24,831 nt of DNA from a virus. Below, piece after piece: positions 1 through 23,668 of the stretch. Under the pieces are notes generated by a model. The model was given only the letters and a program-made list of their open reading frames with translations. It ran no database searches and was not told where the DNA came from. The stretch spans positions 1 to 24,831 of IMG/VR virus record IMGVR_UViG_3300010883_000435; one strand, written 5' to 3'. Each line of letters starts with the position of its first letter. Within the stretch, counting starts at the first letter, position 1. A program made the position numbers and the translations under genes.

Positions 1-3000
1 GGGAGCATCATAAAGCCGGTTACCGGTCCCGGCCCAGTTTCCTATCGTCCCGTCGTTAAACACCCCCGGTGATCTCTCGGTGCCCTTTGCATCTAATATA
101 AATACTGAATTCAATCTCTGTAATTTAATATGAGTCCATTGCTCGTCTTCCATTCCACCGGTCGCGCCACTCCATTGCATCCATGAGTTGCCGCGGCAAA
201 ATAACTGGATGATTGGTCCGTATCTCACCAAAGCCCAATTCCCATTCCCGACACCGGCGGTGGACCCGGGGCCGCTATCGATGGCACCACCCCAACCGCC
301 TTGAATATTATTACTAATAATACTTTGATACTGGTGAAAGGGATGCAAGTTTCCGTTCCGGCCTTTCGAATCCCATGGATCCGGCCAGTCACCACGCGTG
401 TGCAGTCGTCTTACAGCTGGTCGAATTGAACACTGTATAGAAAAGTCACCTACACCAAAATTAAAATCACTGCTAATATTTGTTGTGAGGTAATTTTCTG
501 GGCCAGAGACGACAGATCCATGCCAGCCACCGCGGGAGCTTTGTTCTACCGGTGGGAAGTATAGAGAACTTCCTATACTATATGGGGATTCGGTTGTATC
601 AATCTCTACACCATTTGACGGGTATGCCACCCCTTGACTGTCGATGGAACCATCACCATGGACATTGATTATAGTATGGTCACTTCCGGAATAGTCTAAG
701 ATGTCATCGGTTGCTAGTGCAGGACCTTGGAGATGTAATACAGTATCTACACACTGTGGTTCCCATGGTGGTACAGTTGGTGATGGTGTAGGTGTTTGTG
801 AGCCTGTTGGTGTTGGTGTAGGTGTTTGTGTAGGAGTCGCAGTTGCAGTGTGAGATGGTGTCGGTGTTGCAGAAGGTGTAGCTGACCCGGTTGGAGTTGC
901 AGATGGTGTCGGTGAGCTAGATGGTGTAGGTGTTGGAGTAAGCGTTGCAGTGTGAGATGGTGAAGGAGTTGGTGTCATAGTACATCCTAAAACATCACAT
1001 GCCACCGTTGGAGTTGGTGATGGAGTTGGTGTATATGGAGGTGAACATGATTGACTTTTGAAGAGACCTAATCCATTTCTCAAGCTAGTTTCTAGCATAA
1101 GATCTATTATACCAGCCTGTTCAGTCCATGTATCATACGAACTGGTTGTTTCTTTTAACGTATAGTATTTATCGCTCAATAATTCGTCAGTACTGTTCCA
1201 ATCAATCATGCCTTCCAGTTGATCGAAAGAAGATAATGGATATGCACTATTAGGAACATACTCATAAAACTCGTAGTATTTATCAAATGTTTCATTACTA
1301 GGCCATTCTAAGCCCCATCCCCAAGATTTCTCGTACCCGGAAATCGCATACGTAGACGAACCCAGTACCATAGGTACTATCTTAAAATATCGGTCTTGAA
1401 AGAACTCATTAACTACAATTGGAACACCAGCAGTAACCATATATGTATCTGTCGATAATTTAGTTTCAGTCCGGTTTCGGCCGTGTCGGACTGTATCTGT
1501 AAGTCCGTCTGGGATTCCCTTTTTATCAAAATCAGTATCACCGGTGTTCCGGCAACCGAACAATTTCCGGTGACTAATTGACAGCAAATCTACTAATCTC
1601 CGGATTCCACCAGGGAATGAATAATTATAGTTCTGTAACTCTAATTGAACACCTTCAGCTAAACTGTATAACGCTTTAACATTACATGTATCAACATCAA
1701 CATTATTATGAGCGAAGTTGGCGATCTTTTCATATATAATTTTACCGGGAACTGTTGGTAAATCTCTGTCATCTCCGAATATTTCATATAAAAACTCATC
1801 AACCAATTTTTCCTTTGATGCTATATTTTCCTGTAAAACATATGACTTTAAAGTTCCACCGAAATCATAATCTTCATTTATTTTTAATGCATTGAGGCCG
1901 CTACATGAATGTACATTAAATGGTTCACTCACTCCGGAGATCACACCGGCTTCTGTACTCATTATACCTACTAATACAACATTACTACGGGTTCCGTTAG
2001 TAAATGTTACAACACCTGGGTAACTCCCCGGGGCATTTATAGCGGTCAATGATACATTATCTGTGAAATCTGCAATGAAAGGTGTAGCACCCCAAAAAGG
2101 ACTAGAAAGAGAAAAATATACAGTATTTGGTTCATAAACCTCCGGAGCTTCAAATGAGGATAGTGGCTGACCTTTTAACTGTACGGAAGCCCGACCCTTA
2201 CCTGGGTAGTCTTTAATTATATTACCATTATTATCTGCTACAGAAATGTAAAAAGGGATATCAGTATGTTCAAATTTTATTTTTGATATATCAAATACAT
2301 TTTCTTGTGCTATACCGTTAGATGTAAATACTAATTTACTCGGCGTATTATATGTGACTCCCATCGGTAGATATGCATAATTAACTTGTATAGAATTTAA
2401 TTCCGGTTTTGTAACTATAGATTCATTAATATCATAATTTACATAATACCGTTTATCTGGCCACTGACTAGTATCGAAACTAGCGTACAGCCCTACAGCT
2501 GTTAAACTACTAGTGTCGTCTGTATAATAGACTGGAGCAGATCCAATAGCACCGATAAGAACCGCGTTGGGAGCTGACGGTAGACAACGAATAAATGATT
2601 CACTGTATGTATTTTGAGGATTTCCGGAATGTGAAGGGTCTGTAGTATCAACTAATTCAGAAGCAAATCGCAAATACTGTGGCCCTCTTGCCGATGTCCC
2701 TGTTACAGTATCCCAAGTTGTATCTGAAATAATATTATCGATAGGATTTAAACCGTCACGATCACTAGTGAATCGCCACGTCTTTTGAAACTGCGCATAC
2801 TTATTTTTTTCGTATGTATGTGTTTTTAATGGTATTGATAGACTATTTATTGCATATAAATTTAATTCAAATCCACCGGCAGCCGAAATAGCACTATACG
2901 ACTGCCAGCTATTATTGGTATTAATCCAAAGCTTTTCTGGTCTAGGTCTCGTATACCGTGGGTTATGATTAGTACCTGCTTTAATTGTTGCAGAACGCAG

Positions 3001-3435
3001 CTGAAATGGTGTATCTGCCGGCGATTCAACCCACATAACTGAATCATTAAAATAATTATATGCGGACACTGTTATAACACTTGTGGATTTTATAACTACA
3101 CCATCGCTCCGGACGATTGAAAGTCCTATTCTATATATACCAGGCCATTTATAGTAGTGAGATACCTCATGGCCTCTTTTTTTAGTACCGTCGCCTAAAT
3201 CCCATATAATATTAGTATTAGACAGCTCACATAATACATCAACCGAACTAGTATCAAGCGCATCCATTACCCCTATGGTATTAGCCTTTATTACAATAGG
3301 ATTAGTAGGTATAGTATATCGCCATATTTCTTCTCCAGAAAATATTGTTTTCCATGTACCCATTAAATCCTTGAGCTCAAGAGTAGGGTCTACCATTGAA
3401 TCTAAAGGAGGTGGGCAGTGAGTTTCTAGTGCCAT
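1..3435 (-). CDS. Giant baseplate/adhesin-like protein (PKD, Pro-Thr linker, lectin-like domain), 3' end outside window
   Basis: Reading from the ATG at 3435 gives 1145 codons with no stop, so the gene leaves the window at its C-terminal end. The start overlaps the gp6-like stop (TAATG), indicating translational coupling. A PKD-type Ig fold lies at about residues 45-125, with WDLGDGT at 78-84, HYY at 93-95 and PGIY at 98-101. The middle (about 126-790) is unrecognised and includes a helical stretch GGIRRLVDLLSISHRKLFG. A low-complexity Pro/Thr/Ser linker spans about 798-892, bracketed by Cys797 and Cys895. After it comes a Trp/Gly-rich beta region resembling a LamG/concanavalin-like lectin fold. 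In T4 the gene after gp6 is gp7, a large wedge protein, so it occupies the gp7 slot, but I see no clear gp7 sequence match. Inferred role: peripheral baseplate protein carrying a glycan-binding head. The coding frame is certain; the function is moderate. Confidence 0.85.
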   Translation of the reverse strand, partial: MALETHCPPPLDSMVDPTLELKDLMGTWKTIFSGEEIWRYTIPTNPIVIKANTIGVMDALDTSSVDVLCELSNTNIIWDLGDGTKKRGHEVSHYYKWPGIYRIGLSIVRSDGVVIKSTSVITVSAYNYFNDSVMWVESPADTPFQLRSATIKAGTNHNPRYTRPRPEKLWINTNNSWQSYSAISAAGGFELNLYAINSLSIPLKTHTYEKNKYAQFQKTWRFTSDRDGLNPIDNIISDTTWDTVTGTSARGPQYLRFASELVDTTDPSHSGNPQNTYSESFIRCLPSAPNAVLIGAIGSAPVYYTDDTSSLTAVGLYASFDTSQWPDKRYYVNYDINESIVTKPELNSIQVNYAYLPMGVTYNTPSKLVFTSNGIAQENVFDISKIKFEHTDIPFYISVADNNGNIIKDYPGKGRASVQLKGQPLSSFEAPEVYEPNTVYFSLSSPFWGATPFIADFTDNVSLTAINAPGSYPGVVTFTNGTRSNVVLVGIMSTEAGVISGVSEPFNVHSCSGLNALKINEDYDFGGTLKSYVLQENIASKEKLVDEFLYEIFGDDRDLPTVPGKIIYEKIANFAHNNVDVDTCNVKALYSLAEGVQLELQNYNYSFPGGIRRLVDLLSISHRKLFGCRNTGDTDFDKKGIPDGLTDTVRHGRNRTETKLSTDTYMVTAGVPIVVNEFFQDRYFKIVPMVLGSSTYAISGYEKSWGWGLEWPSNETFDKYYEFYEYVPNSAYPLSSFDQLEGMIDWNSTDELLSDKYYTLKETTSSYDTWTEQAGIIDLMLETSLRNGLGLFKSQSCSPPYTPTPSPTPTVACDVLGCTMTPTPSPSHTATLTPTPTPSSSPTPSATPTGSATPSATPTPSHTATATPTQTPTPTPTGSQTPTPSPTVPPWEPQCVDTVLHLQGPALATDDILDYSGSDHTIINVHGDGSIDSQGVAYPSNGVEIDTTESPYSIGSSLYFPPVEQSSRGGWHGSVVSGPENYLTTNISSDFNFGVGDFSIQCSIRPAVRRLHTRGDWPDPWDSKGRNGNLHPFHQYQSIISNNIQGGWGGAIDSGPGSTAGVGNGNWALVRYGPIIQLFCRGNSWMQWSGATGGMEDEQWTHIKLQRLNSVFILDAKGTERSPGVFNDGTIGNWAGTGNRLYDAP
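760..1050 (-). repeat. Low-complexity Pro-Thr-Ser linker repeat
   Basis: Within the giant protein, roughly 95 codons are almost all Pro, Thr, Ser and Ala, in units such as TPTPSPTPT and SATPTPSHTATATPT. On the plus strand this reads as repeated ggtgttggtgtagg-like units. It probably forms an extended, flexible stalk between the body and the lectin-like domain. Repeats of this kind are prone to length change by slippage. Confidence 0.85.
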
Positions 3436-5748: not shown

Positions 5749-6339
5749 ATGATAGAAAAGAAATTTGATAAATTGTTCGAAAGTAACTTCCAAACCTTAC
5801 AAGGGGGAGGATTATTATCAGGGGACGTCGTTAATTTTATTGATGATATATTAAACCATGATTGGGTGAAGAAACAGCAACCTAATTTAATTGATAAAAT
5901 CAAAGAAATGATGGATTCTGATAATAATATTAGAGTTGGGTCAGTTAAAGGTGAACGACCGGCAGTCTCGGGTAGTATACAACAAGATCAGCAAGTTGGG
6001 GAATTTTACTGTGATATTGTAAGTGAATATGCGCCCGGGCTTTGGTCTAGCTTCGTAACTGTACCAATGGAGCTACTTCAACATGTCGATCTAGGTAATA
6101 ATTTAGCTCCGGTACCTGACAGCCAGAAAAAAGACGACGCAGTACATGTGAAGCCCGTCGAGGATGATCATATGAAAGGTGACGATGAAACCTGTCCTAT
6201 ATACGGTACAAAAAGTGATGAAGGTGATAAGGCACTAGTAAATACAGACATTAAAATCGCCAAAGGTAAGCCTACTACAGATAACTTTAAAACAAAAGTA
6301 TATCTAGAAGCATTACAATCTAAAATACTGAAATTATAA
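5749..6339 (+). CDS. Unrecognised 196-residue protein, probable virion component
   Basis: I do not recognise this family. The soluble, acidic protein begins with MIEKKFDKLFESNFQTLQGG, has a predicted helix-rich first third (to about residue 62), a middle region with GEFYCDIVSEYAPGLWSSF, and a charged, probably disordered segment (about residues 125-175) rich in Asp, Lys and Glu. There are no membrane segments or signal peptide. It is the first gene of a two-gene plus-strand unit with a late-type promoter motif upstream, which suggests late expression with the structural genes. The next gene starts 5 nt after its stop. Its position between a DNA-metabolism block and the baseplate genes does not settle its role. 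Confidence 0.75.
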   Translation: MIEKKFDKLFESNFQTLQGGGLLSGDVVNFIDDILNHDWVKKQQPNLIDKIKEMMDSDNNIRVGSVKGERPAVSGSIQQDQQVGEFYCDIVSEYAPGLWSSFVTVPMELLQHVDLGNNLAPVPDSQKKDDAVHVKPVEDDHMKGDDETCPIYGTKSDEGDKALVNTDIKIAKGKPTTDNFKTKVYLEALQSKILKL

Positions 6340-6344
6340 GTACC

Positions 6345-7229
6345 ATGACCGGTCTTGGAACTATATTTAGTGTAGATAAGACCCTACTTGAAGGAGCGTA
6401 TCTAACAATACTTGAAAGAGGTCGCGACAAGATTATGTACGTTGATGCTGAAGGTAATGACAGAGAAGGTTATCGATCTATGGACCGCCCAGCAACTCCA
6501 GGGAATTTGATCATCGAAGATCCAGAAACTCAGAAAAAAGCAGAAATCCACCCGGATCAGATTTCAACTACATCAGTAAGAGGCCGGCAACCTGGAACTA
6601 CATCTGAAATGCCGGTGGTAAATCCATATGGAACCGGGGAAGAAGCACCGGTGGCAACAGACTTCCCACCTCCGCGGGATACACCAGTTGAACCAGAACC
6701 AGAAGCTGAACCAGAACCAGAACCAGAAGCTGAACCCGTAGCTGTAGCTGGACCAACAACATTTAAACCAGGTGATAAAATTACGTGGCAAGATGAAGCT
6801 GGTAATACACTTACTGGAACAGTTGACACTGACTCGATTTATCCAGCTAGCCCTATTGGACCTCAAACTAGAATGCAAATAGTCCCGGATACAGGTGGTG
6901 AAGTTGTACAATTATCACCAGATGCCGTTTCACTATCAGGTCCACCTGCCCCGGAAGCCACCGCGGCTCCTGAAGCTGCACCGGCTCCTGAAGCTGTACC
7001 GGAAGCGGTTCCGGAAATTAAATCCGCACCGGTTCCAGGAACGACTTTAGGTCAGTACCCTCAAACTGAACAAGAATGTAAGGAAACTGGCGGGTATTGG
7101 ACTGATGGAAAATGCCAACCAAGATCAGCTCCTGCAGGATTTGGAGGATCTAACCCAGTCTATGCAGAAAACCGGAAAACTCTCACAGAATCATCGTCTC
7201 CATATAGATTTAACACTTCTCTATTTTGA
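6345..7229 (+). CDS. Unrecognised 294-residue protein with two similar small beta domains and an acidic Pro/Glu linker
   Basis: The protein is modular. Residues 29-76 (KIMYVDAEGNDREGY ... IHPDQIS) and 145-196 (KITWQDEAGNTLTG ... LSPDAVS) align with each other in pattern and look like two copies of a small SH3/KOW-like barrel. Between them is a PEPEAEPEPEPEAEP tract (about 115-131). After the second copy a Pro/Ala/Glu tract (about 200-230) leads to a C-terminal CKETGGYWTDGKC element (245-257) and an Asn/Ser-rich tail ending YRFNTSLF. Function is unknown. The layout resembles a tethered binding protein or virion decoration. The gene follows the 196-residue gene by 5 nt and overlaps the convergent gp44-like gene by 9 nt. 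Confidence 0.75.
   Translation: MTGLGTIFSVDKTLLEGAYLTILERGRDKIMYVDAEGNDREGYRSMDRPATPGNLIIEDPETQKKAEIHPDQISTTSVRGRQPGTTSEMPVVNPYGTGEEAPVATDFPPPRDTPVEPEPEAEPEPEPEAEPVAVAGPTTFKPGDKITWQDEAGNTLTGTVDTDSIYPASPIGPQTRMQIVPDTGGEVVQLSPDAVSLSGPPAPEATAAPEAAPAPEAVPEAVPEIKSAPVPGTTLGQYPQTEQECKETGGYWTDGKCQPRSAPAGFGGSNPVYAENRKTLTESSSPYRFNTSLF
6690..6734 (+). repeat. Acidic Pro-Glu linker repeat
   Basis: GAACCA-type units, interrupted by GAAGCT, encode the PEPEAEPEPEPEAEP stretch of the 294-residue protein. Such rigid, negatively charged linkers separate folded domains. Confidence 0.75.
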
Positions 7230-8138
7230 GAGCGCGATTAAACAGCTATAAAAATTAATCTCTGGGTCTAACACAAAAGCCATTCTATATAAGTGCTCAG
7301 CTATTATTAATAGATGTTCTCTCTTAGTGTTATCGTCAATTTTAACGTCATGTACATAGTCGAATAATGATCGTAACAATTCCGTATAATCATTGCCAAA
7401 TTGACTCTCATTTTCAATAACAATCTTACGTAACTTAAGTACTAGGCCTTTTTGTATGAGCTGATATAATTTTTCTACAAACTTCTTGTTAATACCGGAC
7501 TGTTTTATATTAATCTCACCGTCAATTACACACTTTTGTAATTCGTTGATAGTTTTTCGTAAATCTGGATATAAACTCTTACAAAAATCTACTAATTTAT
7601 CATTATCTTCATAATTAACACTTTCTGCATCTAAAACATACTTACATCTCTCTATATACAAATCTTCCGGGGGGATTAAGTCTAAAAACTGACATCTACT
7701 CTGTAATGCTGGAATTACCTTATGTTTATAATTAGCAGTTAGTACAAAGCGCACATATTCACTATACTCTTCCATAGTATTACGTAGCGCTCGTTGAGCA
7801 TCTAGTGTCAATCCGTCGACTTCATCTAAAATAATGACCTTTATACTACCGTCGAAACTTTTTACCTTACTAAAATTGGTAACTTTCGTTCTTATAGTGT
7901 CTATACCATTTTCGTCACTAGCATTTATATATAAATACTGACAACCTAGAACAGATTTAACCAAAATCTTCGCTAGAGAGGTTTTTCCTATACCAGCCGG
8001 TCCGACGAATAAGAGATTTGGTATTTCTTTATCATTATTAAACTTATTAACGATGCGCTTATTGTGAGAGTCTAGAACAATCTCATCTAACGTACTAGGT
8101 CGGTACTTCTCGACCCATAGTGAATCAAATTTACTCAT
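7221..8138 (-). CDS. 44: Sliding-clamp loader ATPase, gp44/RFC small-subunit type
   Basis: This 305-residue AAA+ protein matches the T4 gp44 (319 residues) and RFC small-subunit family. These use ATP to open the sliding clamp and load it on primer-template DNA. Visible motifs are WVEKYRPSTLDEIV at the N-terminus (family signature), Walker A GPAGIGKTS (about residues 47-55), Walker B VIILDEVDG, sensor 1 FVLTANY and the SRC arginine-finger motif in QSRCQFLDLIPPED. The C-terminal third is the helical collar domain. The start overlaps the dUTPase stop (ATGA) and the gene ends in TAG. No gp62-type small subunit or gp45 clamp is visible in this window, so partners must lie elsewhere or be replaced. 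Confidence 0.92.
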   Translation of the reverse strand: MSKFDSLWVEKYRPSTLDEIVLDSHNKRIVNKFNNDKEIPNLLFVGPAGIGKTSLAKILVKSVLGCQYLYINASDENGIDTIRTKVTNFSKVKSFDGSIKVIILDEVDGLTLDAQRALRNTMEEYSEYVRFVLTANYKHKVIPALQSRCQFLDLIPPEDLYIERCKYVLDAESVNYEDNDKLVDFCKSLYPDLRKTINELQKCVIDGEINIKQSGINKKFVEKLYQLIQKGLVLKLRKIVIENESQFGNDYTELLRSLFDYVHDVKIDDNTKREHLLIIAEHLYRMAFVLDPEINFYSCLIALSK

Positions 8139-8602
8139 AGTCCGGATTCAAGCTTGGGGTCTGATGATCCAAATCCAGAATCTCCCCGGTTTGAACTAGT
8201 AATTTCTTCAGAAAACTCAAAACTCGGTTGTATTAGCTGATATATTACCAACTGTGCGATACGATCACCCCTTTTTATTGTAACTCCGGTTCGATCATGA
8301 AAGTTATAGAGCTTTACACCTAAATCACCGCGGTATCCGTTATCAATCACACCTAGATGTGGTTGAATGCTGCTTTTAAAGCCCAATCCGCTCCTAGGTT
8401 CAATCTTAAACCAATAACCCGGGGAAATGTACGCTACATGCAAACCGACCGGGATAACTACTGATTTCCCGGGAGGAACGTTCGCAGACTCAACGGCTAC
8501 GAGGTCATATCCGGTGTCACCAATGCCATGGCCGGTATTATTTACCTGTGGTAATTCCGCCAAAGGGTGGGTTTTCTTTAATTTAATTATAGGGTTACTC
8601 AT
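8135..8602 (-). CDS. dut: Trimeric dUTPase (deoxyuridine triphosphatase)
   Basis: The 155-residue enzyme hydrolyses dUTP to dUMP and pyrophosphate, keeping uracil out of phage DNA and supplying dTMP synthesis. All five trimeric dUTPase motifs are visible in order: GDTGYDLVA (1), PRSGLG (2), GVIDNGYRGDLGV with its catalytic Asp (3), GDRIAQLVI (4) and the flexible C-terminal RGDSGFGSS (5), whose Phe stacks on the uracil. Length fits the family, and about 10 residues follow motif 5. The start ATGAGTAA overlaps the stop of the preceding 49-codon ORF, and the gene is coupled to the gp44-like gene downstream, giving a small replication/nucleotide operon. GC content looks higher than in neighbouring genes. 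Confidence 0.95.
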   Translation of the reverse strand: MSNPIIKLKKTHPLAELPQVNNTGHGIGDTGYDLVAVESANVPPGKSVVIPVGLHVAYISPGYWFKIEPRSGLGFKSSIQPHLGVIDNGYRGDLGVKLYNFHDRTGVTIKRGDRIAQLVIYQLIQPSFEFSEEITSSNRGDSGFGSSDPKLESGL

Positions 8603-8790: not shown

Positions 8791-9243
8791 ATGGATGCCG
8801 AAGTTAATTCACTGATTACACAATTAAAGAGTAGTAACAAACTATCTAAAGATATTATAACCAATAAGAACGAAACCCTAGATAAAGAAGATTTAGAGCA
8901 ATTTATTTTAAATAATTCTGCTAAGTTAATAGCTGACAGTATGGAAATGATTGCATCAATGAAGGACTACGTGTCAGCAGGTGATAACCCGGACGATGTT
9001 GCTTCGTTTGCTGAACTATTTAAAGCTAGTACACATGCCATGGAAATCCTCAATAAAATTCTAATACAAAATAAGCGTGGCGCAACAACCGAAAAAGTTA
9101 AACAGATGGATATTGATGCTAGAAAACAAATAACTGTGGCTGAGCATCAATCTAAAATGTTACTTTCTAGATCTGAGGTCGTTGAAAAGCTAATAAATAG
9201 CGCTAATAATATAGTTGAAATAGAAGCAGAAGAAAAGCTTTAA
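8791..9243 (+). CDS. Candidate small terminase subunit (gp16-like)
   Basis: This 150-residue, almost entirely helical protein has a central stretch IADSMEMIASMKDYVSAGDN followed by FAELFKASTHAMEILNKILI and QNKRGATTEKVKQMDIDARK. This resembles small terminase subunits of T4-like phages, in which a helical core oligomerises into a ring that recognises DNA and regulates the large subunit. The resemblance is by pattern (paired helices, then a charged exit segment), not by a diagnostic motif. It is the only gene between 7230 and 24831 on the plus strand, diverges from the dUTPase operon and converges on the 271-residue gene with a 4-nt overlap. No Shine-Dalgarno sequence is evident. An alternative is an unrelated coiled-coil protein. 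Confidence 0.5.
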   Translation: MDAEVNSLITQLKSSNKLSKDIITNKNETLDKEDLEQFILNNSAKLIADSMEMIASMKDYVSAGDNPDDVASFAELFKASTHAMEILNKILIQNKRGATTEKVKQMDIDARKQITVAEHQSKMLLSRSEVVEKLINSANNIVEIEAEEKL

Positions 9244-10055
9244 CTAGATGAGACAGCTTCAAATCTATTCGCGCCTAACATATCTGCATTGGTAACTGTC
9301 TTTGCATTAGGAGTCTCTTTTTCATACCTGTTCATTTTATTAGAAAATGAATCAACTAAAACACGCGCGGTACTTTCAACATTAATATTAATCGACCATT
9401 TATAGAATTTCATGATTGATTTATTATTTTGATTAAATTCCAGTACTCTAAACATATCTCCTAATTTATTCTTAATAATTGCTTCTGATTGAGGTGCTGC
9501 TACTGCCATTCTTTCATAGTGCATTGAATCTGTAATAAGGCTTCGCCCATGGGGGTCCTTACTTAAATAACTGGGTATACCAGTAGAATCCCTTAGAAAC
9601 CGGGCGTTACGCTTAAAGACATTAGATGTCTTTCTACTCATTGTCTCCGTTAGGCGCCGGGTTTCTGGGGGTAGAGTATAACCTAGCGTGGATCCACATA
9701 TATGACCATAATCATCAGCATCAGATACCGGTATAACGCTGCTATCTTTTATATTTTCGAAATTATTATTCAATACCAATAGTCCTATACATTCACTATA
9801 GTCTTGAAAATATACTGATCCGGGATTTGATTTTTTAATGACATCTTTAGTTGTTTTGTGTAAGACCCGGAACTTATCTAACCAATATATTAGAAACCAA
9901 GTTTCTAAATCTTTAAATCCAAGAATATTATCTAGCGTGTAATCATCACCATATGGGTGTTGAACGTCCGCCCATTGTTGACTAGTCGACCTAGTATTAG
10001 TAGTATTGTCAACATCGTGTCTAGTTACCGCTACGCGTGGGCGATCCGTTAACAT
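9240..10055 (-). CDS. Unrecognised 271-residue protein, last gene of the hub operon
   Basis: I cannot assign a family. The ATG at 10055 lies inside the end of the 578-residue gene (7-nt overlap), so the two are translated together. The protein has an Asp/Thr/Arg-rich N-terminus (about residues 1-40), a folded core with LETWFLIYWLDKFRVLHKTT, one conserved-looking HICGSTLGYTLPPETRRL segment, and a C-terminal part with FYKWSININVESTARVLVDS. There is no signal peptide or membrane segment. Placement after the hub and the annexin-like protein suggests a baseplate or hub component, or a partner of the 578-residue protein. It ends convergent with the plus-strand gene. Confidence 0.7.
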   Translation of the reverse strand: MLTDRPRVAVTRHDVDNTTNTRSTSQQWADVQHPYGDDYTLDNILGFKDLETWFLIYWLDKFRVLHKTTKDVIKKSNPGSVYFQDYSECIGLLVLNNNFENIKDSSVIPVSDADDYGHICGSTLGYTLPPETRRLTETMSRKTSNVFKRNARFLRDSTGIPSYLSKDPHGRSLITDSMHYERMAVAAPQSEAIIKNKLGDMFRVLEFNQNNKSIMKFYKWSININVESTARVLVDSFSNKMNRYEKETPNAKTVTNADMLGANRFEAVSSS

Positions 10056-11785
10056 GTGGATTCCCCTCCAGCTGTAGGGTTATTATCATCATCTAGTATT
10101 AAATGTTCATCTTTTCCTAGTTGTCCACTAATTATCTTATTTCTAACAGCAACTGTGTCTACTAAATTAGAACTACAGAACTCTTGTAATTCTTCAATTA
10201 ATGATTTATCACCGGAGAAGTCTATTACTTTATCACATGAGGTGATCGCCGAGGATGTCGCTCTTTCACACATTGCAGATAATACACTCATATCACCATC
10301 ACCTTTTGTAGCTTCACGTAATCCAGCCATTATTGAACCCCTCAAATCAGGGAACTGTTCACCAATTTTGCTTAACAAAAGTGCCATTTGGTATGGATCG
10401 CTTTCAGAGAGAGACTTGCTATCGGTACCTATACCCAATATTATCGGGAACCTGTCTATAGCACTCTTAGCATCAGTAGAGAAGTTATCTTCTATATTAT
10501 CCTGTGCTTCAACTAACAGACGTTTAATAGCCGGCTTAGGGTACATATTCATAATATTTGTATTACTATTATTCTTAAAAAATTTGGAAATAGCCAGATC
10601 TGGGTTAGTTACTGTTTTTAGTTTATTAAACCTATTGACTAATTCAATTTCATTTTGAAATGGAGCTAATTGACCGAACCTATCAGACATCGATAACAGT
10701 AATGGTATCATTGTAATAAATCCGTTATCAGCGATATGAGGGAATGTTGTTTTCTGTAGCTCCGGAGGTGGTGGTGGATTGTGTCGTGAGCCATTAGGAT
10801 TAGTGTCGGTTTTAGGTATTGTTACAACTGCTATCTTCTCATTTTCCGGAACATCGATAGGAACAACTTGCTGTTCCCATTGATCCTCTGCATCTACTAG
10901 TGGGCTCCAATCCTCACAATGCTTACTAGCTTCGGCTATCTTTATTAAATTTAATATCTTTTCATACTCACCATCATCAAAGAAATCACCTTCATCCTCG
11001 AGGTCTTCTAACCATGTAAGAAGTGAGCCTCTAGCTTCAAGATCTGATCTATTCGGTTCACCGAAAAAACACATAAATGCTTCCCGGACTTGTTCCATTA
11101 TACAATAGTCATGTCCGACTCGGATTCCACTATATATCTTACCTTTATCAACATCATCTCCATCGCACCAAATACAAGTCCTTCCACCAACCATGCCCTC
11201 ATACAACATTTTAGCGGCTGCATAGGCTCTCATGTGCACTTGCCTAGTTTGGTCAGTAACTTGATATTTAGACCAGTACGAAACTCCATCTGCTTCCGTA
11301 CATCCACCATAAAATCTAAAAAAAGGGTATCCGTCTCGGACCTGTTGTGATGATCCAGCATATATTGTGGCTCCAGCCATGGCCAATCCAGGGGCGATCG
11401 CAAGCGCTAGACCACCGGTTGCAATAACAATGGCTGCCGCTGCGGTAACTCCACCAAGTATAGCATACCACTCGTAGTCGCTAAAGTCATCTGCAAGCCA
11501 CCCTTCTAGGGTTCGTTCTTTTTCTTCTAGACGGGCGGCAGCTCCATTTGTAATGTGCTTTGCGCCCCAGTGCTGGAACCAGTGCACTGAAACATCACCA
11601 ACTAATCCATATTCATTAGCTTCATCTAAAGCTAACAAAACAACATCTTCATCTGTCCCCATTCCTTCCATTGCATCATATAATCTCCGGCAGATATCAT
11701 CAACCCTTCCATGGTGAGTTGTTGTTATAGCAGGCATACCCAGCTCTTTGTTCCTTTCTGTAGCTTTCTCGTGTAGGGTACTCAT
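10049..11785 (-). CDS. Large hub-operon protein with annexin-like GTDE motif and hydrophobic segment
   Basis: This 578-residue protein is unlike any classical T4 tail protein I know. Residues 30-58 (ICRRLYDAMEGMGTDEDVVL) match the annexin repeat pattern, with the G-x-GTDE calcium-loop motif at 41-46, followed at 93-106 by acidic LEGWLADDFSDYEW. A long Ala/Gly-rich hydrophobic stretch (about 111-143) could span or insert into a membrane. A Cys-rich region follows, including CIWC (204-207) next to DGDDVDKG. A Pro run (337-341) separates it from a helical C-terminal half. There are twelve Cys in all, unusual for a structural protein. It lies between the gp27-like hub (ATGA overlap) and the 271-residue gene. 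Inferred: a hub-associated or injected protein that contacts membrane. No lysozyme motif is seen. Confidence 0.7.
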   Translation of the reverse strand: MSTLHEKATERNKELGMPAITTTHHGRVDDICRRLYDAMEGMGTDEDVVLLALDEANEYGLVGDVSVHWFQHWGAKHITNGAAARLEEKERTLEGWLADDFSDYEWYAILGGVTAAAAIVIATGGLALAIAPGLAMAGATIYAGSSQQVRDGYPFFRFYGGCTEADGVSYWSKYQVTDQTRQVHMRAYAAAKMLYEGMVGGRTCIWCDGDDVDKGKIYSGIRVGHDYCIMEQVREAFMCFFGEPNRSDLEARGSLLTWLEDLEDEGDFFDDGEYEKILNLIKIAEASKHCEDWSPLVDAEDQWEQQVVPIDVPENEKIAVVTIPKTDTNPNGSRHNPPPPPELQKTTFPHIADNGFITMIPLLLSMSDRFGQLAPFQNEIELVNRFNKLKTVTNPDLAISKFFKNNSNTNIMNMYPKPAIKRLLVEAQDNIEDNFSTDAKSAIDRFPIILGIGTDSKSLSESDPYQMALLLSKIGEQFPDLRGSIMAGLREATKGDGDMSVLSAMCERATSSAITSCDKVIDFSGDKSLIEELQEFCSSNLVDTVAVRNKIISGQLGKDEHLILDDDNNPTAGGESTC

Positions 11786-13419
11786 ATTATACTTTCATTA
11801 AACTTTAAATCTTTAAAATAATATGGTTTGAGTCCTATTATTTGATTATGGTATCCATTTGTATTAATACTATGCAACACCGATGTTACAAAATACTGTC
11901 CTAAGAGTTTACTGTCGAAATTACTCTCATCATACCCGGTATTTCGATCAATCCCTATAAATCGACCAGACCGGCGGTTTGGCATGCCTTTCACATTAAA
12001 CATAATTGCGTTTCCCTTGAATAATATAGTTTGTAATGTTTTATTTCTACCATTAGCTTTACCCGCAGCGTTAATGGAAGCACTCTTTTCCGTTGTATCT
12101 GATCCAGTATATACATTATATATATTTTTGTTTTCTTTTCTTAATTTATTGACTATAAAACTAGCAACCGGGCCGGTCTTGGGATCACCTAGCATGTAAT
12201 CTGTAATGTTCCTCTCAAAAAAGTCTCGAACATTTTCGATATCCCCATCTGTTAAATTTATATCAAATTGCCCGGAATCATACTTATGAGCCATAGTTGA
12301 GTTCAATTCGGTAGCATTATCAAACCCGGCCATTTCTGTAAATTCATAATCACTGATAATACCTACATCGGGATTATGAAAATTAATTACAGGTGATGTA
12401 GATACTCGCGGAATTTTTGGTTCATTTTTTATAATAGTATTTGAACTTGCTTCTTGTCCTAAATAAAACCGTTCTTGTTGATACGGTCCAGGTTGGGCTA
12501 AGGATTTATTATATGCTCTTTTATAGTATTCACCTATAGGTAGTAGTGACCATTCATCTGTAAACCGATCTAGAGATAGTATACATGGTTGATTATTAGA
12601 GCCGTCTGTACTTATATGAGAATCTAATAGATACTCTAGAGTGTCTATCATCTTATCCCCGGCAGGTGCACAATGAAATACCTTACCTCCACCATCATCC
12701 CAATCAGTAGAAAATTTAGGAGGATATTTTGGAAACGATTCTCGTATAACATCTTTTATAGCTAAACCTGTTAATATAGAGCGATCTGCATTAGATTGCT
12801 GGGAAACCGGAAGCCTAGATATAGCACTGTCTTCTATTCTCCTTAAAGCTGCAGATGTACTCCAAAAAGAATTTTTTTCTGACATTAATTCATATCTATA
12901 ATCCCAAAAATACAGTTTTTTTGTCTTTTTAGATGAGCCACCACTAGATGTAATATCTTCTGTTGCATATATACTACATAAAAGTTTAATCGTATATGTC
13001 TTTGTATTTAAACTAAGTGTTTGTGACGGATCATCACTAGATATTGGTATATCTAATTCAATATAAATATAGTCTCGGCCATCGGATCTAAATGTATATG
13101 GCTCCATATCGATATAAACATCTTCGTTTTTATAGCTTTTAACAGCTCTTTCTAGAAAGTCTTGAGGGTTCTTAAAAATTAAATAACCTTTGTGGAACCA
13201 ATCTAAAATATTGTCTTCAATTATTAAGCTCTCAATAGCTCCTCTTCTGAGCTTTGTCATTCTTCCGTCATTGTTAATAAGTACAGCTTTAAACTTAAAA
13301 AGACGGTCACCGATGAGTTCGTTAGTAGGATTCAATGGTGGGAGCTTCGCCCTCGAATTTCCACGAGCTGATTTTACTGATGCTGTGCCTCCAGTATTTG
13401 TAGTTCTCTTAGTCATCAC
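11782..13419 (-). CDS. 27: Baseplate central hub protein, gp27-like
   Basis: The 545-residue protein has the expected position and ending of a hub protein (T4 gp27, 391 residues; P2 gpD and Mu gp44 are analogues), a trimer at the tube tip that holds the spike. The N-terminal domain starts with RLFKFKAVLINNDGRMTKLR and alternates strands typical of the tube-like hub fold. The C-terminal end GQYFVTSVLHSINTNGYHNQ followed by IIGLKPYYF matches the family pattern (G-x-Y-x-V-x-x-V-x-H ... Y). It is about 150 residues longer than gp27, with a Ser/Lys-rich disordered N-terminus. The first Met is preceded by overlap with the gp53-like stop (ATGA). The hub role is supported by context; sequence similarity is limited. 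Confidence 0.65.
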   Translation of the reverse strand: MMTKRTTNTGGTASVKSARGNSRAKLPPLNPTNELIGDRLFKFKAVLINNDGRMTKLRRGAIESLIIEDNILDWFHKGYLIFKNPQDFLERAVKSYKNEDVYIDMEPYTFRSDGRDYIYIELDIPISSDDPSQTLSLNTKTYTIKLLCSIYATEDITSSGGSSKKTKKLYFWDYRYELMSEKNSFWSTSAALRRIEDSAISRLPVSQQSNADRSILTGLAIKDVIRESFPKYPPKFSTDWDDGGGKVFHCAPAGDKMIDTLEYLLDSHISTDGSNNQPCILSLDRFTDEWSLLPIGEYYKRAYNKSLAQPGPYQQERFYLGQEASSNTIIKNEPKIPRVSTSPVINFHNPDVGIISDYEFTEMAGFDNATELNSTMAHKYDSGQFDINLTDGDIENVRDFFERNITDYMLGDPKTGPVASFIVNKLRKENKNIYNVYTGSDTTEKSASINAAGKANGRNKTLQTILFKGNAIMFNVKGMPNRRSGRFIGIDRNTGYDESNFDSKLLGQYFVTSVLHSINTNGYHNQIIGLKPYYFKDLKFNESII

Positions 13420-15088: not shown

Positions 15089-15100
15089 AAAAATACTTAT
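15089..15100 (-). promoter_or_regulatory. Start-proximal element ATAAGTATTTTT before the gp48-like gene
   Basis: A variant copy directly abuts the ATG at 15088, in a 55-nt gap after the tape-measure extension. The T-rich end departs from TTTAT, so the complement lacks an exact TATAAATA. Confidence 0.5.
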
Positions 15101-15143
15101 AGTTAGTACTAGGTTGCTCGACGATATATAGGTACTCTTCTAG

Positions 15144-15332
15144 TCATCGTCCCGGCCGGCTCCGTGTGCGGTCTCTGAAATTTCCTATTGATCCACCGGA
15201 TTGTTGATTAACTGAAGCACTGTACATTGGAGCGTTATTCACAGTAACTCCACCTTCTCTTACCGCGGTGATAATATTTTCATTTAATTCTCCTTGAAGC
15301 CGAACTTGTTCTCGTGAGAGTTTAATCTTCTA
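15144..15332 (-). other. In-frame 61-codon continuation of the tape measure after an amber codon
   Basis: After TAG at 15330-15332 the same frame runs open for 61 codons to TGA at 15144-15146. It encodes KIKLSREQVRLQGELNENII, TAVREGGVTVNNAPMYSASV and NQQSGGSIGNFRDRTRSRPG R. The first part continues the charged helix that ends the main frame (LDREQEELKEREA). The NNAP and Gln/Ser/Gly-rich tail resembles the C-terminal ends of other phage tape measures. Without it the 241-nt gap would be the longest unexplained stretch in the tail operon. It may be a readthrough extension, a recent nonsense mutation, or a sequencing or assembly error. Confidence 0.6.
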
Positions 15333-20608: not shown

Positions 20609-23600
20609 TTATGATACAATTTCACTAAAGTCTTGACCGGTTCTTGTTGCATAGAAGTTAACTAATATAAATTCGGCAGCTCTCACCGGTTTAATATATA
20701 TATCAACAACTAATTCATTCTGATCGATAACGTCTGGTGTATTATTACGCTCATCACATATGAGTAAATAATCATACATTCCGTCTGTGTTTTTAGCATT
20801 CTCAAAAATAGGTGTCAATACATTAACTACTTGAGTTCGTGTAAACAACGTATTCGGCTCAAAAACAAAATACTTAACAGTAGCTCTTACAGCTTTTTCA
20901 AGATATAAGAACAACCGCCTAACATTAATTCTATCAAATGCACTAGGCTTTTTCTGAAATGTCTTTTGACCAAATATTACAAATCCATCATTTGGAAAAT
21001 TAGCTACAGGATTGAGACTAATCTTATATAATTGATCCCGGTGCTTTTGCCTTGGATATAATGCTATATCTGAAACTCCAGATAATAAACCTCTAGTAAA
21101 TCCAGCTGGGGCATACCATGGATAAAAATTAGAATCTGTATTCGCCATGGCTGCAGCTGCAAAACCACTAAATGGTGCCCAAACTCCGCGATTTAATACA
21201 CCATCAAATACACGTGCCCAATTTGCGTATGTGCATGCAAAGCTTGTATTTACATTACCAAAGACGTGTCGATTAGGCCAGTAAATATGTTGAGAAAAGT
21301 TTTTCTTTGATGTTGGATTCGCTGGGTCGGTTTGTTCTAGTGTTTTACTGTTTCTACCTTGGACATAAATATATCTAAGACCATCAGCGACATATAATAA
21401 ATCTTTCCGTTTATTCTGCGCGAAGTCGACAAATGCGTCATTAACATACCTATAATTTGAAACTACATCAGGTGGAGTGTTTAATACCTGGGTGGCTGAT
21501 AGTGCATCAATATTTACCGATACCTCATCATCGAATCCTGGAGCTGTACCTCCTTTAGTTCCAGCGTAAATTGTACCTAACCCGGCCTCCGGTACTATAT
21601 CAATAGGATATAGTTCCCAATTATCAACTAATTCAAAAACTCTTTCTAGCTTTGTAGGTATAGAACCCACAACTCGGGTCGTGATGTCAGTTTTCTGAAA
21701 AGTTCCGGATGGATATATATTTTCACCGTGAGCTTTTGCATCTAATGAACATATCATTGCAGATGTTTCGGCTTGTTCTGTTGTATCAACGTATTTTATA
21801 GACTTATCACTACATGAGGCGTCTGAACCACCGGCTAAGGTCAATGCTCCCGCGAGGCCATTAGCAGGAAATGCGCTGACTTCGGCGGTAGCAGTGCCGT
21901 TTGAGACAATGTCCCCGGTTCCCAACGCGTTAGTGGTGGATTCTACGACAGATACTATAGTGGCGGCTACGCCATCAACGCCACCATTCGCTCCGGCTAA
22001 AGTAATCCCATTTCCAAGCAATCCGGGAGTGGCTGCAGAAAACGTGATTGCTGGGCCGCGGACTTTTGACTCTCCTCCAGATAGCTTAGATTGTGCTGTA
22101 GTTGGAGCTGCGTAACCATTAACAGTTAGCCCTACAGTTGAAGGAGCAACAGCTGCTCCACTTTGAAATACTTGAATTGCTGTATCACCACCAGTGCCGT
22201 ACTTAATTTGGTTAATCGTTACCGTAGGCCCGGTAGAGGATGAGGTCCAATTTGTCGTATCCAACGCAATGTGAGCACTCATGTTCGTAGCGTCATCGTC
22301 GGTATTTCCACCATACGAGTAGGATCCGGCGGTTCCTCCGGCAACTGAGCCGGTGAAGTCGGTCACGGTGCCGGTGGCATTAGTAAGAGAATCAGCCAAC
22401 GGTGTCAATTTAAGTGTTACATCACTCGCAATTAACAGAGCATGGTCAGTAACTTCAACAGTACCTGTAGATTGTACCCATGTACCAGTTTGAGTCCACC
22501 AGTCATATGAAGCTGCGACGGCGCCGACTGTTGTTACAGCAGCTTGCTTTACACGGACGCGTTTTTCTGGGATGGCGTTTTCTTGATCGAACCAATTCCC
22601 ACTATGTTTACTAATATATGGATTAACAAAACATCTAATATTTGTAGAACTAGACGCTATATCTTCAATAAACATTGATTGAGCTGGGCCACCGTCAGGT
22701 GTAAAATGTTCTCGATATGAATTTAGTGATCCAACATATGATTCAACTAAAATGTAGTCTAGTTTCGTTGTATCGGGCTCTAAAACTGATCTTCTTATCT
22801 TAAATACACCAACTGCTATTGTATCACTAAATTCTGGTGTACTAATATCATATTGAGACAAATTCTCCATGATTTCACTAACTGTATTATCTCTAGTATA
22901 TTGTATACCGCCGGCGGTGATGGGTGAATGTAATGTAAATGCCAACCGGCTTAAAGGAACAGTCACATAATTTGTTCCGATCGTATTAGCTGGATTTAAT
23001 GACTTTAAATTGAGAATAGAGTCAAAATTAGTCGCTGGATTCAGATTGGTATTATCTGAAATACCAACATAAAACCCTTCAAATTTTTCATTAATAACAT
23101 TTTTTCTGGTATTAACAATAATCATACCCGCTTTGCCCCATGTCTGTGCATCGCTAGTTGATGTACCAGTTAAAAAGTTACTGACTGTTGGGTCATCTTG
23201 CCAATCTAAGTGACCTTGTGTCAAAAGTTGGTACTGCTCTTCAGTCAGCTGAACATTACTAGGTTCTCCAAACCAGTAACCTCCAGTTGAAGCAGATAAG
23301 CTAATTCCACCGGTGACCGTTCCAGTTGTTCTTTCTGGTTGAACGTAAACTGGATACACTAGTGCACTGTAACCGGTCGCGACGTTGTCACCTGCAGCCG
23401 CTCCATATGGCAATCTAGTTACTAGGACATTACCTGGGCTTGATTTGGCGGCCCGCACAGTGTGATAAAAATACCTCTCAGCAGCATTAGTTGGTAGTCC
23501 GTATATCTGTTCGAACTCACTTAAACTCGCGATTTCTAGGACTTCATCTGTGGGTCTTTTTTGGGCAAAACCCGATATAAAAATATTTGTTCCGACAGGT

Positions 23601-23668
23601 AATGCTGGTCGAAGTGATAAATCAACTTCTTTAATTTCAACGCCTGGACTTTGTATTGTACGTGCCAT
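20609..23668 (-). CDS. 18: Tail sheath protein, gp18-like, with a large inserted domain
   Basis: The 1019-residue contractile sheath subunit is far longer than T4 gp18 (659). Ends are canonical: ARTIQSPGVEIKEVDLSLRP at the N-terminus and, at the C-terminus, RINVRRLFLYLEKAVRATVK, FVFEPNTLFTRTQVVNVLTP and the final strand region VVDIYIKPVRAAEFILVNFY, which builds the inter-subunit mesh. An insert of about 245 residues (about 376-620, window about 21811-22543) is Gly/Ala/Thr/Ser-rich, poor in charged residues, and locally much richer in GC. It carries the GNGITLAG ... ALTLAGGSD pattern seen in surface modules of phage structural proteins. A late-type TATAAATA lies 17 nt before the start, with GAGAT nearer the ATG. 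Confidence 0.92.
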   Translation of the reverse strand: MARTIQSPGVEIKEVDLSLRPALPVGTNIFISGFAQKRPTDEVLEIASLSEFEQIYGLPTNAAERYFYHTVRAAKSSPGNVLVTRLPYGAAAGDNVATGYSALVYPVYVQPERTTGTVTGGISLSASTGGYWFGEPSNVQLTEEQYQLLTQGHLDWQDDPTVSNFLTGTSTSDAQTWGKAGMIIVNTRKNVINEKFEGFYVGISDNTNLNPATNFDSILNLKSLNPANTIGTNYVTVPLSRLAFTLHSPITAGGIQYTRDNTVSEIMENLSQYDISTPEFSDTIAVGVFKIRRSVLEPDTTKLDYILVESYVGSLNSYREHFTPDGGPAQSMFIEDIASSSTNIRCFVNPYISKHSGNWFDQENAIPEKRVRVKQAAVTTVGAVAASYDWWTQTGTWVQSTGTVEVTDHALLIASDVTLKLTPLADSLTNATGTVTDFTGSVAGGTAGSYSYGGNTDDDATNMSAHIALDTTNWTSSSTGPTVTINQIKYGTGGDTAIQVFQSGAAVAPSTVGLTVNGYAAPTTAQSKLSGGESKVRGPAITFSAATPGLLGNGITLAGANGGVDGVAATIVSVVESTTNALGTGDIVSNGTATAEVSAFPANGLAGALTLAGGSDASCSDKSIKYVDTTEQAETSAMICSLDAKAHGENIYPSGTFQKTDITTRVVGSIPTKLERVFELVDNWELYPIDIVPEAGLGTIYAGTKGGTAPGFDDEVSVNIDALSATQVLNTPPDVVSNYRYVNDAFVDFAQNKRKDLLYVADGLRYIYVQGRNSKTLEQTDPANPTSKKNFSQHIYWPNRHVFGNVNTSFACTYANWARVFDGVLNRGVWAPFSGFAAAAMANTDSNFYPWYAPAGFTRGLLSGVSDIALYPRQKHRDQLYKISLNPVANFPNDGFVIFGQKTFQKKPSAFDRINVRRLFLYLEKAVRATVKYFVFEPNTLFTRTQVVNVLTPIFENAKNTDGMYDYLLICDERNNTPDVIDQNELVVDIYIKPVRAAEFILVNFYATRTGQDFSEIVS

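Follow-up and report, generated by a model that had tools for sequence, protein, structure and literature searches.

In a viral contig window of 24,831 nucleotides (24.8 kb; "window" denotes the whole stretch of DNA analysed, IMG/VR record IMGVR_UViG_3300010883_000435), a 578-residue protein, P0001, was found by computation to carry an annexin-type repeat with the ligand pattern of an annexin Ca2+ site, a hydrophobic segment and a match to a baseplate domain, and to occupy a syntenic slot in the baseplate gene cluster. Our best reading, held with a probability of about 0.55, is that P0001 represents the first half of the baseplate protein encoded after the hub (the post-hub protein), preceded by an N-terminal head of ~340 residues with which the tail tip would grip the cytoplasmic membrane.

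P0001 and its genomic position

The window contains tail and baseplate genes, including those for the sheath, tubes, T4_baseplate hub proteins and wedge proteins of the gp53, gp25 and gp6 types. Judging from these sequences, its source is a divergent uncultured T4-like phage; gp6 of the window shows at most 28% identity to isolated phages, mostly cyanophages. The initial annotation had placed P0001 right after a conserved baseplate gene, and the 4-nt overlap (ATGA) between the two genes agrees with this; at its other end P0001 overlaps a 271-aa gene by 7 nt. The gp27 identity proposed for the upstream gene fits its position, but no sequence match was found in Pfam, nor in PDB with a 15-sequence profile, and matches in PHROGs were weak and unnamed.

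All elements described previously were located in the minus-strand ORF (Table 1): the annexin-type motif LYDAMEGMGTDEDVV (residues 35-49), an acidic Trp segment LEGWLADDFSDYEW (residues 93-106), the hydrophobic stretch, a CxxC (residues 204-207) within the Cys-rich part, the Pro run and a C-terminal half that is helical by prediction. P0001 contains 11 Cys in total and is strongly acidic, with a net charge of about -40.

Table 1. Coordinates of P0001, its sequence elements and the adjoining genes in the window
Feature	Position	Strand	Basis or remark
Hub-position baseplate gene	11782..13419	minus	IMG/VR relatives at 38-40% identity; hub role from position only
P0001, 578-aa ORF	10049..11785	minus	ATG at 11785, TAA at 10049; translationally coupled overlaps on both sides
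Annexin repeat, residues ~24-113	11447..11716	minus	Profile match, AF2 helices and Foldseek
MEGMGTDE (M39-E46), GxGTD type II Ca2+ loop	11648..11671	minus	M39, G41 and G43 align with annexin loop ligands; invariance in the set is by construction
D100, acidic cap predicted for the Ca2+ site	11486..11488	minus	Column D/E in 19/19 aligned sequences
Gly/Ala-rich hydrophobic segment, residues ~113-145, continuing annexin helix E	11351..11449	minus	Kyte-Doolittle maximum 2.19 (19-residue window)
Acidic Cys-rich part, residues 162-239 (C162, C204, C207, C228, C239)	11069..11302	minus	Sequence
Candidate second, degenerate annexin repeat, residues 185-290	10916..11233	minus	4.7 bits, reached by 7/2000 shuffles; among several segments tried
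Pro run PPPPP, residues 337-341, linker	10763..10777	minus	Sequence
N-terminal domain of post-hub baseplate protein, residues 345-411	10553..10753	minus	Gapless profile match
Residues 412-578, helical	10052..10552	minus	Helix prediction
271-aa core of post-hub baseplate protein	9240..10055	minus	BLASTP E 2e-24 to the L048 post-hub protein (its residue 152 onward)

An annexin-type repeat at the N-terminus

Employing the motif AMxGxGTDE, which is expected ~1e-5 times in the proteome of the window on the basis of residue composition, we scanned IMG/VR and obtained 47 contigs; in nearly all of them the motif lies inside an ORF. One pattern match (L046), in an unrelated tail protein without annexin context, was excluded from the set. 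Against a profile of 20 other non-redundant phage domains chosen by the motif, residues 27-106 of P0001 scored 29.7 bits. Because the set had been picked by the motif, we stripped it before rescoring; the part of P0001 C-terminal to the motif scored 6.3 bits against the phage annexin-like domains, and 5 of 2000 shuffles reached that score.

When the phage annexin profile (22 rows, P0001 included) was searched against PDB, it retrieved eukaryotic annexins with E-values down to 4.6e-61, and all 60 chains among the matches listed were annexins. P0001 alone matched annexins weakly among PDB sequences (E 0.2-0.5) and gave no PF00191 match in Pfam even at E 10, the gathering score not being reached. 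Four other IMG/VR phage proteins (L039, L143, L144 and L148) pass the Pfam Annexin cut-off directly. As we read these scores, P0001 is related to annexins via intermediate phage relatives. The profile search with this region, proposed in the initial annotation, retrieved annexins via the phage profile and no unrelated known family.

The predicted structure points in the same direction. An AF2 model of residues 1-160, calculated with 22 sequences, was mostly confident over residues 1-115 and showed annexin-like helices A to E (residues 22-39, 46-58, 62-74, 88-98 and 103-123). The last of these reaches into the hydrophobic segment, with low confidence beyond residue 116. In a Foldseek comparison with PDB, annexins came out on top, and the cleanest matches aligned ~87 columns with rmsd values of 1.7-1.9; the E-values of the annexin matches were 0.4 or worse, and the alignment given to AF2 consisted of motif-selected relatives. 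Among viral structures, no Foldseek match of the model had an E-value below 0.4. Predicted without relatives, full-length P0001 reached a mean pLDDT of 37 and was usable only at residues ~10-70, where a helix (24-40), a loop and a second helix (46-58) were already visible. Structure prediction and comparison with annexin repeats, the other check suggested earlier, gave the five-helix A-E arrangement and annexins as the top PDB folds, at weak E-values.

It is very improbable, in our judgement, that the GTDE motif arose by chance or convergence and that residues 24-113 are no annexin repeat. The failure of P0001 alone to match Pfam and the selection of its relatives by the motif would be in keeping with such an origin; the similarity that persists beyond the motif, the conserved cap acid and leucines, the predicted annexin-type fold and the low expectation for the motif all argue against it. 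Because profile, predicted fold and Ca2+-ligand pattern are all annexin-type, we encountered neither a fold without the annexin helical arrangement nor a place for the protein in a known, unrelated family, and the N-terminal module stands as annexin-type.

P0001 has one clear repeat, compared with the four or more tandem repeats of annexin proteins. The score of residues 185-290 is no more than suggestive of a second repeat. A second GxGTD (ILGIGTDSKS, residues ~450-455, 10424-10438 on the minus strand) was rejected as a repeat, its surroundings scoring -3.7 bits. The best match of P0001 to a PDB sequence, an amoebapore on residues 493-540 (E 0.085), was judged to be due to chance.

The predicted calcium site

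Met28, Gly30, Gly32 and Glu72 form the type II Ca2+ site of annexin A5. The counterparts in P0001 are M39, G41, G43 and D100, so that all four positions are kept. The cap column, which, unlike the GxGTD motif, had no role in selecting the sequences, is occupied by D in 14 and by E in 5 of the 19 sequences; leucines are also conserved in the phage annexin-like alignment. The repeat of P0001 has the complete ligand pattern of a type II site and may bind Ca2+.

Alternatively, the annexin fold could be a structural spacer or a protein-binding module of the baseplate that binds neither Ca2+ nor membranes. P0001 has one repeat only, and its loop-to-cap distance is 57 residues (a longer loop) instead of ~40 (40-43 in many phage sequences); the Cys-rich part could do the work of the head. 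We regard this as improbable in view of the conservation of every Ca2+-ligand position, the cap acid included, and of the strongly hydrophobic segment directly behind the repeat.

Compared with the annexin repeat PF00191 (PMC3894181), that of P0001 likewise has five helices, a GxGTD(E) loop and an acidic cap; it differs in that only one repeat is clear where four are usual, in the longer loop before helix D, in lying below Pfam detection and in its fusion to a phage baseplate domain.

Probable fusion of the head to a post-hub baseplate protein

Syntenic contigs were gathered via relatives of the hub gene in IMG/VR, and many more via the clamp-loader gene. In 12 lineages (the L048 group, the L050 group, L064, L065, L066, L068, L069, L070, L071, L072, L080 and L084), one protein family is encoded directly after the hub, and its members open with a conserved KTxxPxIxDxN...DPxxAxxxFF domain. 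Residues 345-411 of P0001, which start right behind the Pro run, matched the profile of this domain with 14.7 bits and no gap. None of 1000 shuffles reached this score (best 6.2); among 3297 ORFs the match had an E-value of 0.005 and ranked just below the family and above L066, a member by position. The core of the family (SDSIG, HGxNLVTD and similar motifs) is absent from the P0001 chain and was found in the next ORF, the 271-aa gene. Farther toward the C-terminus, the P0001 tail VRNKIISGQLGKDEHL weakly resembles residues 89-104 of the L048 post-hub protein.

Because residues 345-411 match the N-terminal post-hub domain and the 271-aa gene lacks it, the head appears to be fused onto a split post-hub protein. 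Very probably, P0001 comprises an annexin, hydrophobic and Cys-rich head in front of a post-hub protein that is divided here over two overlapping ORFs. The initial annotation had singled out P0001 as the best candidate for an undescribed device; a separate new device was not borne out, since residues 345-411 correspond to the usual post-hub N-terminal domain and the core lies in the next ORF. On the sequence evidence, the new part is only residues ~1-340. Like members of the post-hub family (L048, L050, L064, L068, L080, L084 and others), P0001 lies behind the hub, and its residues 345-411 together with the next ORF span the family; it differs from them in the annexin, hydrophobic and Cys head, seen only in P0001, and in the division between two ORFs.

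Possibly, P0001 and the 271-aa ORF form one protein of ~850 aa whose frame was broken near 10050-10090 in sequencing or assembly, which would be compatible with our best reading. The two ORFs together are colinear with single post-hub proteins of relatives, and there is a GGGG run within the overlap; with a sound start codon in the overlap and split post-hub genes also present in L065 and L066, we consider a frameshift rather unlikely.

No full-length relative of P0001 was found in IMG/VR, INPHARED or the whole contigs of syntenic phages, and GTDB genomes yielded two matches only, both annexin-only. Because P0001 has no full-length relative in these databases, the architecture of head plus baseplate domain is represented by one contig. 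A wider motif scan gave six further contigs with annexin-like proteins, none with an adjoining hub or post-hub gene. The post-hub and hub profiles found no meaningful match in PDB.

In one relative (L064), the post-hub protein contains a 3D domain (27.7 bits versus a cut-off of 23.8), with PHROG peptidase matches; by tblastn the protein resembles cell-wall peptidases of phages. This cell-wall-cleaving domain indicates that the post-hub gene accepts envelope-acting domains.

A proposed role at the cytoplasmic membrane

How contractile phages open the cytoplasmic membrane once the cell wall has been pierced is still poorly understood. An annexin repeat built into the tail is a concrete candidate for this step, by Ca2+-dependent docking on acidic lipid. 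In our best reading, the Pro-rich linker would tie the head to the domain of ~67 residues and so build it into the baseplate of the virion together with the 271-aa core protein. The head would be positioned at or near the tail tip and would contact the anionic surface of the cytoplasmic membrane once the sheath has contracted. There, the annexin repeat may dock via Ca2+ and phospholipid head groups, and the hydrophobic segment may insert in the membrane and help to open or seal a passage for DNA. Annexins usually use several repeats for membrane binding, and the single repeat in P0001 may be too weak for it.

T4 gp5 is thought to act on the envelope. As a functional comparison only, this spike lysozyme is, like P0001, encoded next to the hub, and a wall-acting domain (3D) occurs in the slot in L064. 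In P0001 itself, no hydrolase or lysozyme domain was found with Pfam or PHROGs, and there was no useful Pfam, NCBIfam or PHROG match at all.

The initial annotation had considered both a membrane-contacting tip and an ejected effector. Since P0001 carries the post-hub N-terminal domain, a built-in tail-tip module is favoured over a free ejected effector. Toxins of the PVC type carry single annexin domains, for which a role in breaching membranes has been proposed (Zhang 2012, PMC3482391), and Annexin is among the effector domains of extracellular contractile injection systems (eCIS; Geller 2021, PMC8213781). By analogy, the annexin head could be a cargo or effector-type part that travels on the baseplate and enters the host cell upon release. 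The annexin domains of PVC/eCIS toxins and of the Chloroflexi protein L057 (92.8 bits) would fit this, as would the many phage annexin proteins whose N-termini resemble head-targeting sequences, as in packaged proteins. A cargo role is improbable, however: the match of the C-terminal half to the baseplate domain argues for anchoring, no enzymatic or toxin domain was recognised in P0001, and family profile searches found neither DUF4157 nor a C-terminal toxin domain in it. P0001 and these toxins (PMC3482391, PMC8213781) share a single annexin domain on a phage-tail-like injection machine; in the toxins the annexin is cargo before a toxin domain, whereas in P0001 it precedes a baseplate domain. 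The repeat forms a link between phage tails and contractile injection systems, in which toxins have single annexin domains of unproven purpose.

Annexin-like proteins in other phages and in bacteria

A survey of bacterial annexins reported no viral annexins and accepted single-domain bacterial forms (Kodavali 2014, PMC3894181); compared with that reported absence in 2014, annexin repeats do occur in phage contigs. An open-access literature search of partial coverage found no paper on phage annexins. Strongly hydrophobic segments are present in 20 of 27 phage annexin proteins versus 38 of 262 neighbouring ORFs, the sequences not being independent. Other IMG/VR phage annexin-like proteins (L006, L008, L013, L020, L039, L143, L144, L147 and L148) have the repeat in common with P0001 and frequently a hydrophobic segment, which, unlike that of P0001, is usually N-terminal to the repeat. 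Among them, no annexin repeat joined to a post-hub domain was found. The gene for that of L039, with 835 aa, immediately follows a T4 baseplate gene, and that of L147 has a peptidoglycan-binding domain.

We advance tentatively, and at somewhat less than even odds, the wider idea that phages have widespread, overlooked annexin-based envelope-contact proteins. These would combine Ca2+-dependent docking repeats with glycine-rich membrane segments, sometimes with peptidoglycan-binding domains, in tail tips or packaged proteins. In P0001, the head would sit in the baseplate gene in which a relative has a wall hydrolase, maybe with a second, degenerate repeat in which a Cys/Asp loop has replaced the Ca2+ loop.

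In eight contigs (L001, L006, L008, L013, L020, L030, L144 and L147), the N-termini of the annexin-like proteins often resemble T4-type head-targeting/cleavage sequences (RIKNLMGYDRSKTLNE, IIKEEL). These proteins follow the same type of order, from N-terminal peptide to Gly/Ala-rich hydrophobic segment to annexin repeat, and in some the C-terminal end is peptidoglycan-binding-like. They are candidate packaged, ejected proteins. In a Chloroflexi MAG (L057:3179-6383), a protein with two annexin repeats adjoins a second annexin-like ORF, and the neighbourhood resembles eCIS toxin proteins.

Further observations on the baseplate and tail genes

In two related contigs, the post-hub slot is enlarged to two or three ORFs (L065:2151-6006 and L066:2366-5993). 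One of these ORFs is amidase-like (L065:3855-4880) and another muramidase-like (L066:2366-4144) by eye; Pfam gave no match for either. Amid the baseplate cluster of the window lie genes for a clamp loader (DNA-polymerase) and a dUTPase (7221-8602, minus strand), in an order that is kept in related phages.

With 1019 aa, the tail sheath protein of the window (20609-23668, minus strand) is roughly double the normal length. Matches to sheath family profiles fall mainly at its two ends and in the C-terminal ~200 residues, so that it would hold a large inserted domain. The gene after gp6 (1-3435, minus strand), which extends past the contig end, encodes an N-terminal PKD domain, a long linker of Thr/Pro/Ser repeats (TPTPSPT...) and a lectin-like C-terminal part, a domain make-up unusual for a baseplate wedge protein. 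In L048, a close relative, a Hint/intein-like ORF of 140 aa (5829-6251, plus strand; PT-HINT, 42.5 bits versus a cut-off of 27.7) stands alone, flanked by a tape-measure-like gene and the tail gene that follows; at the corresponding place the window has a gap of 241 bases (15089-15329).
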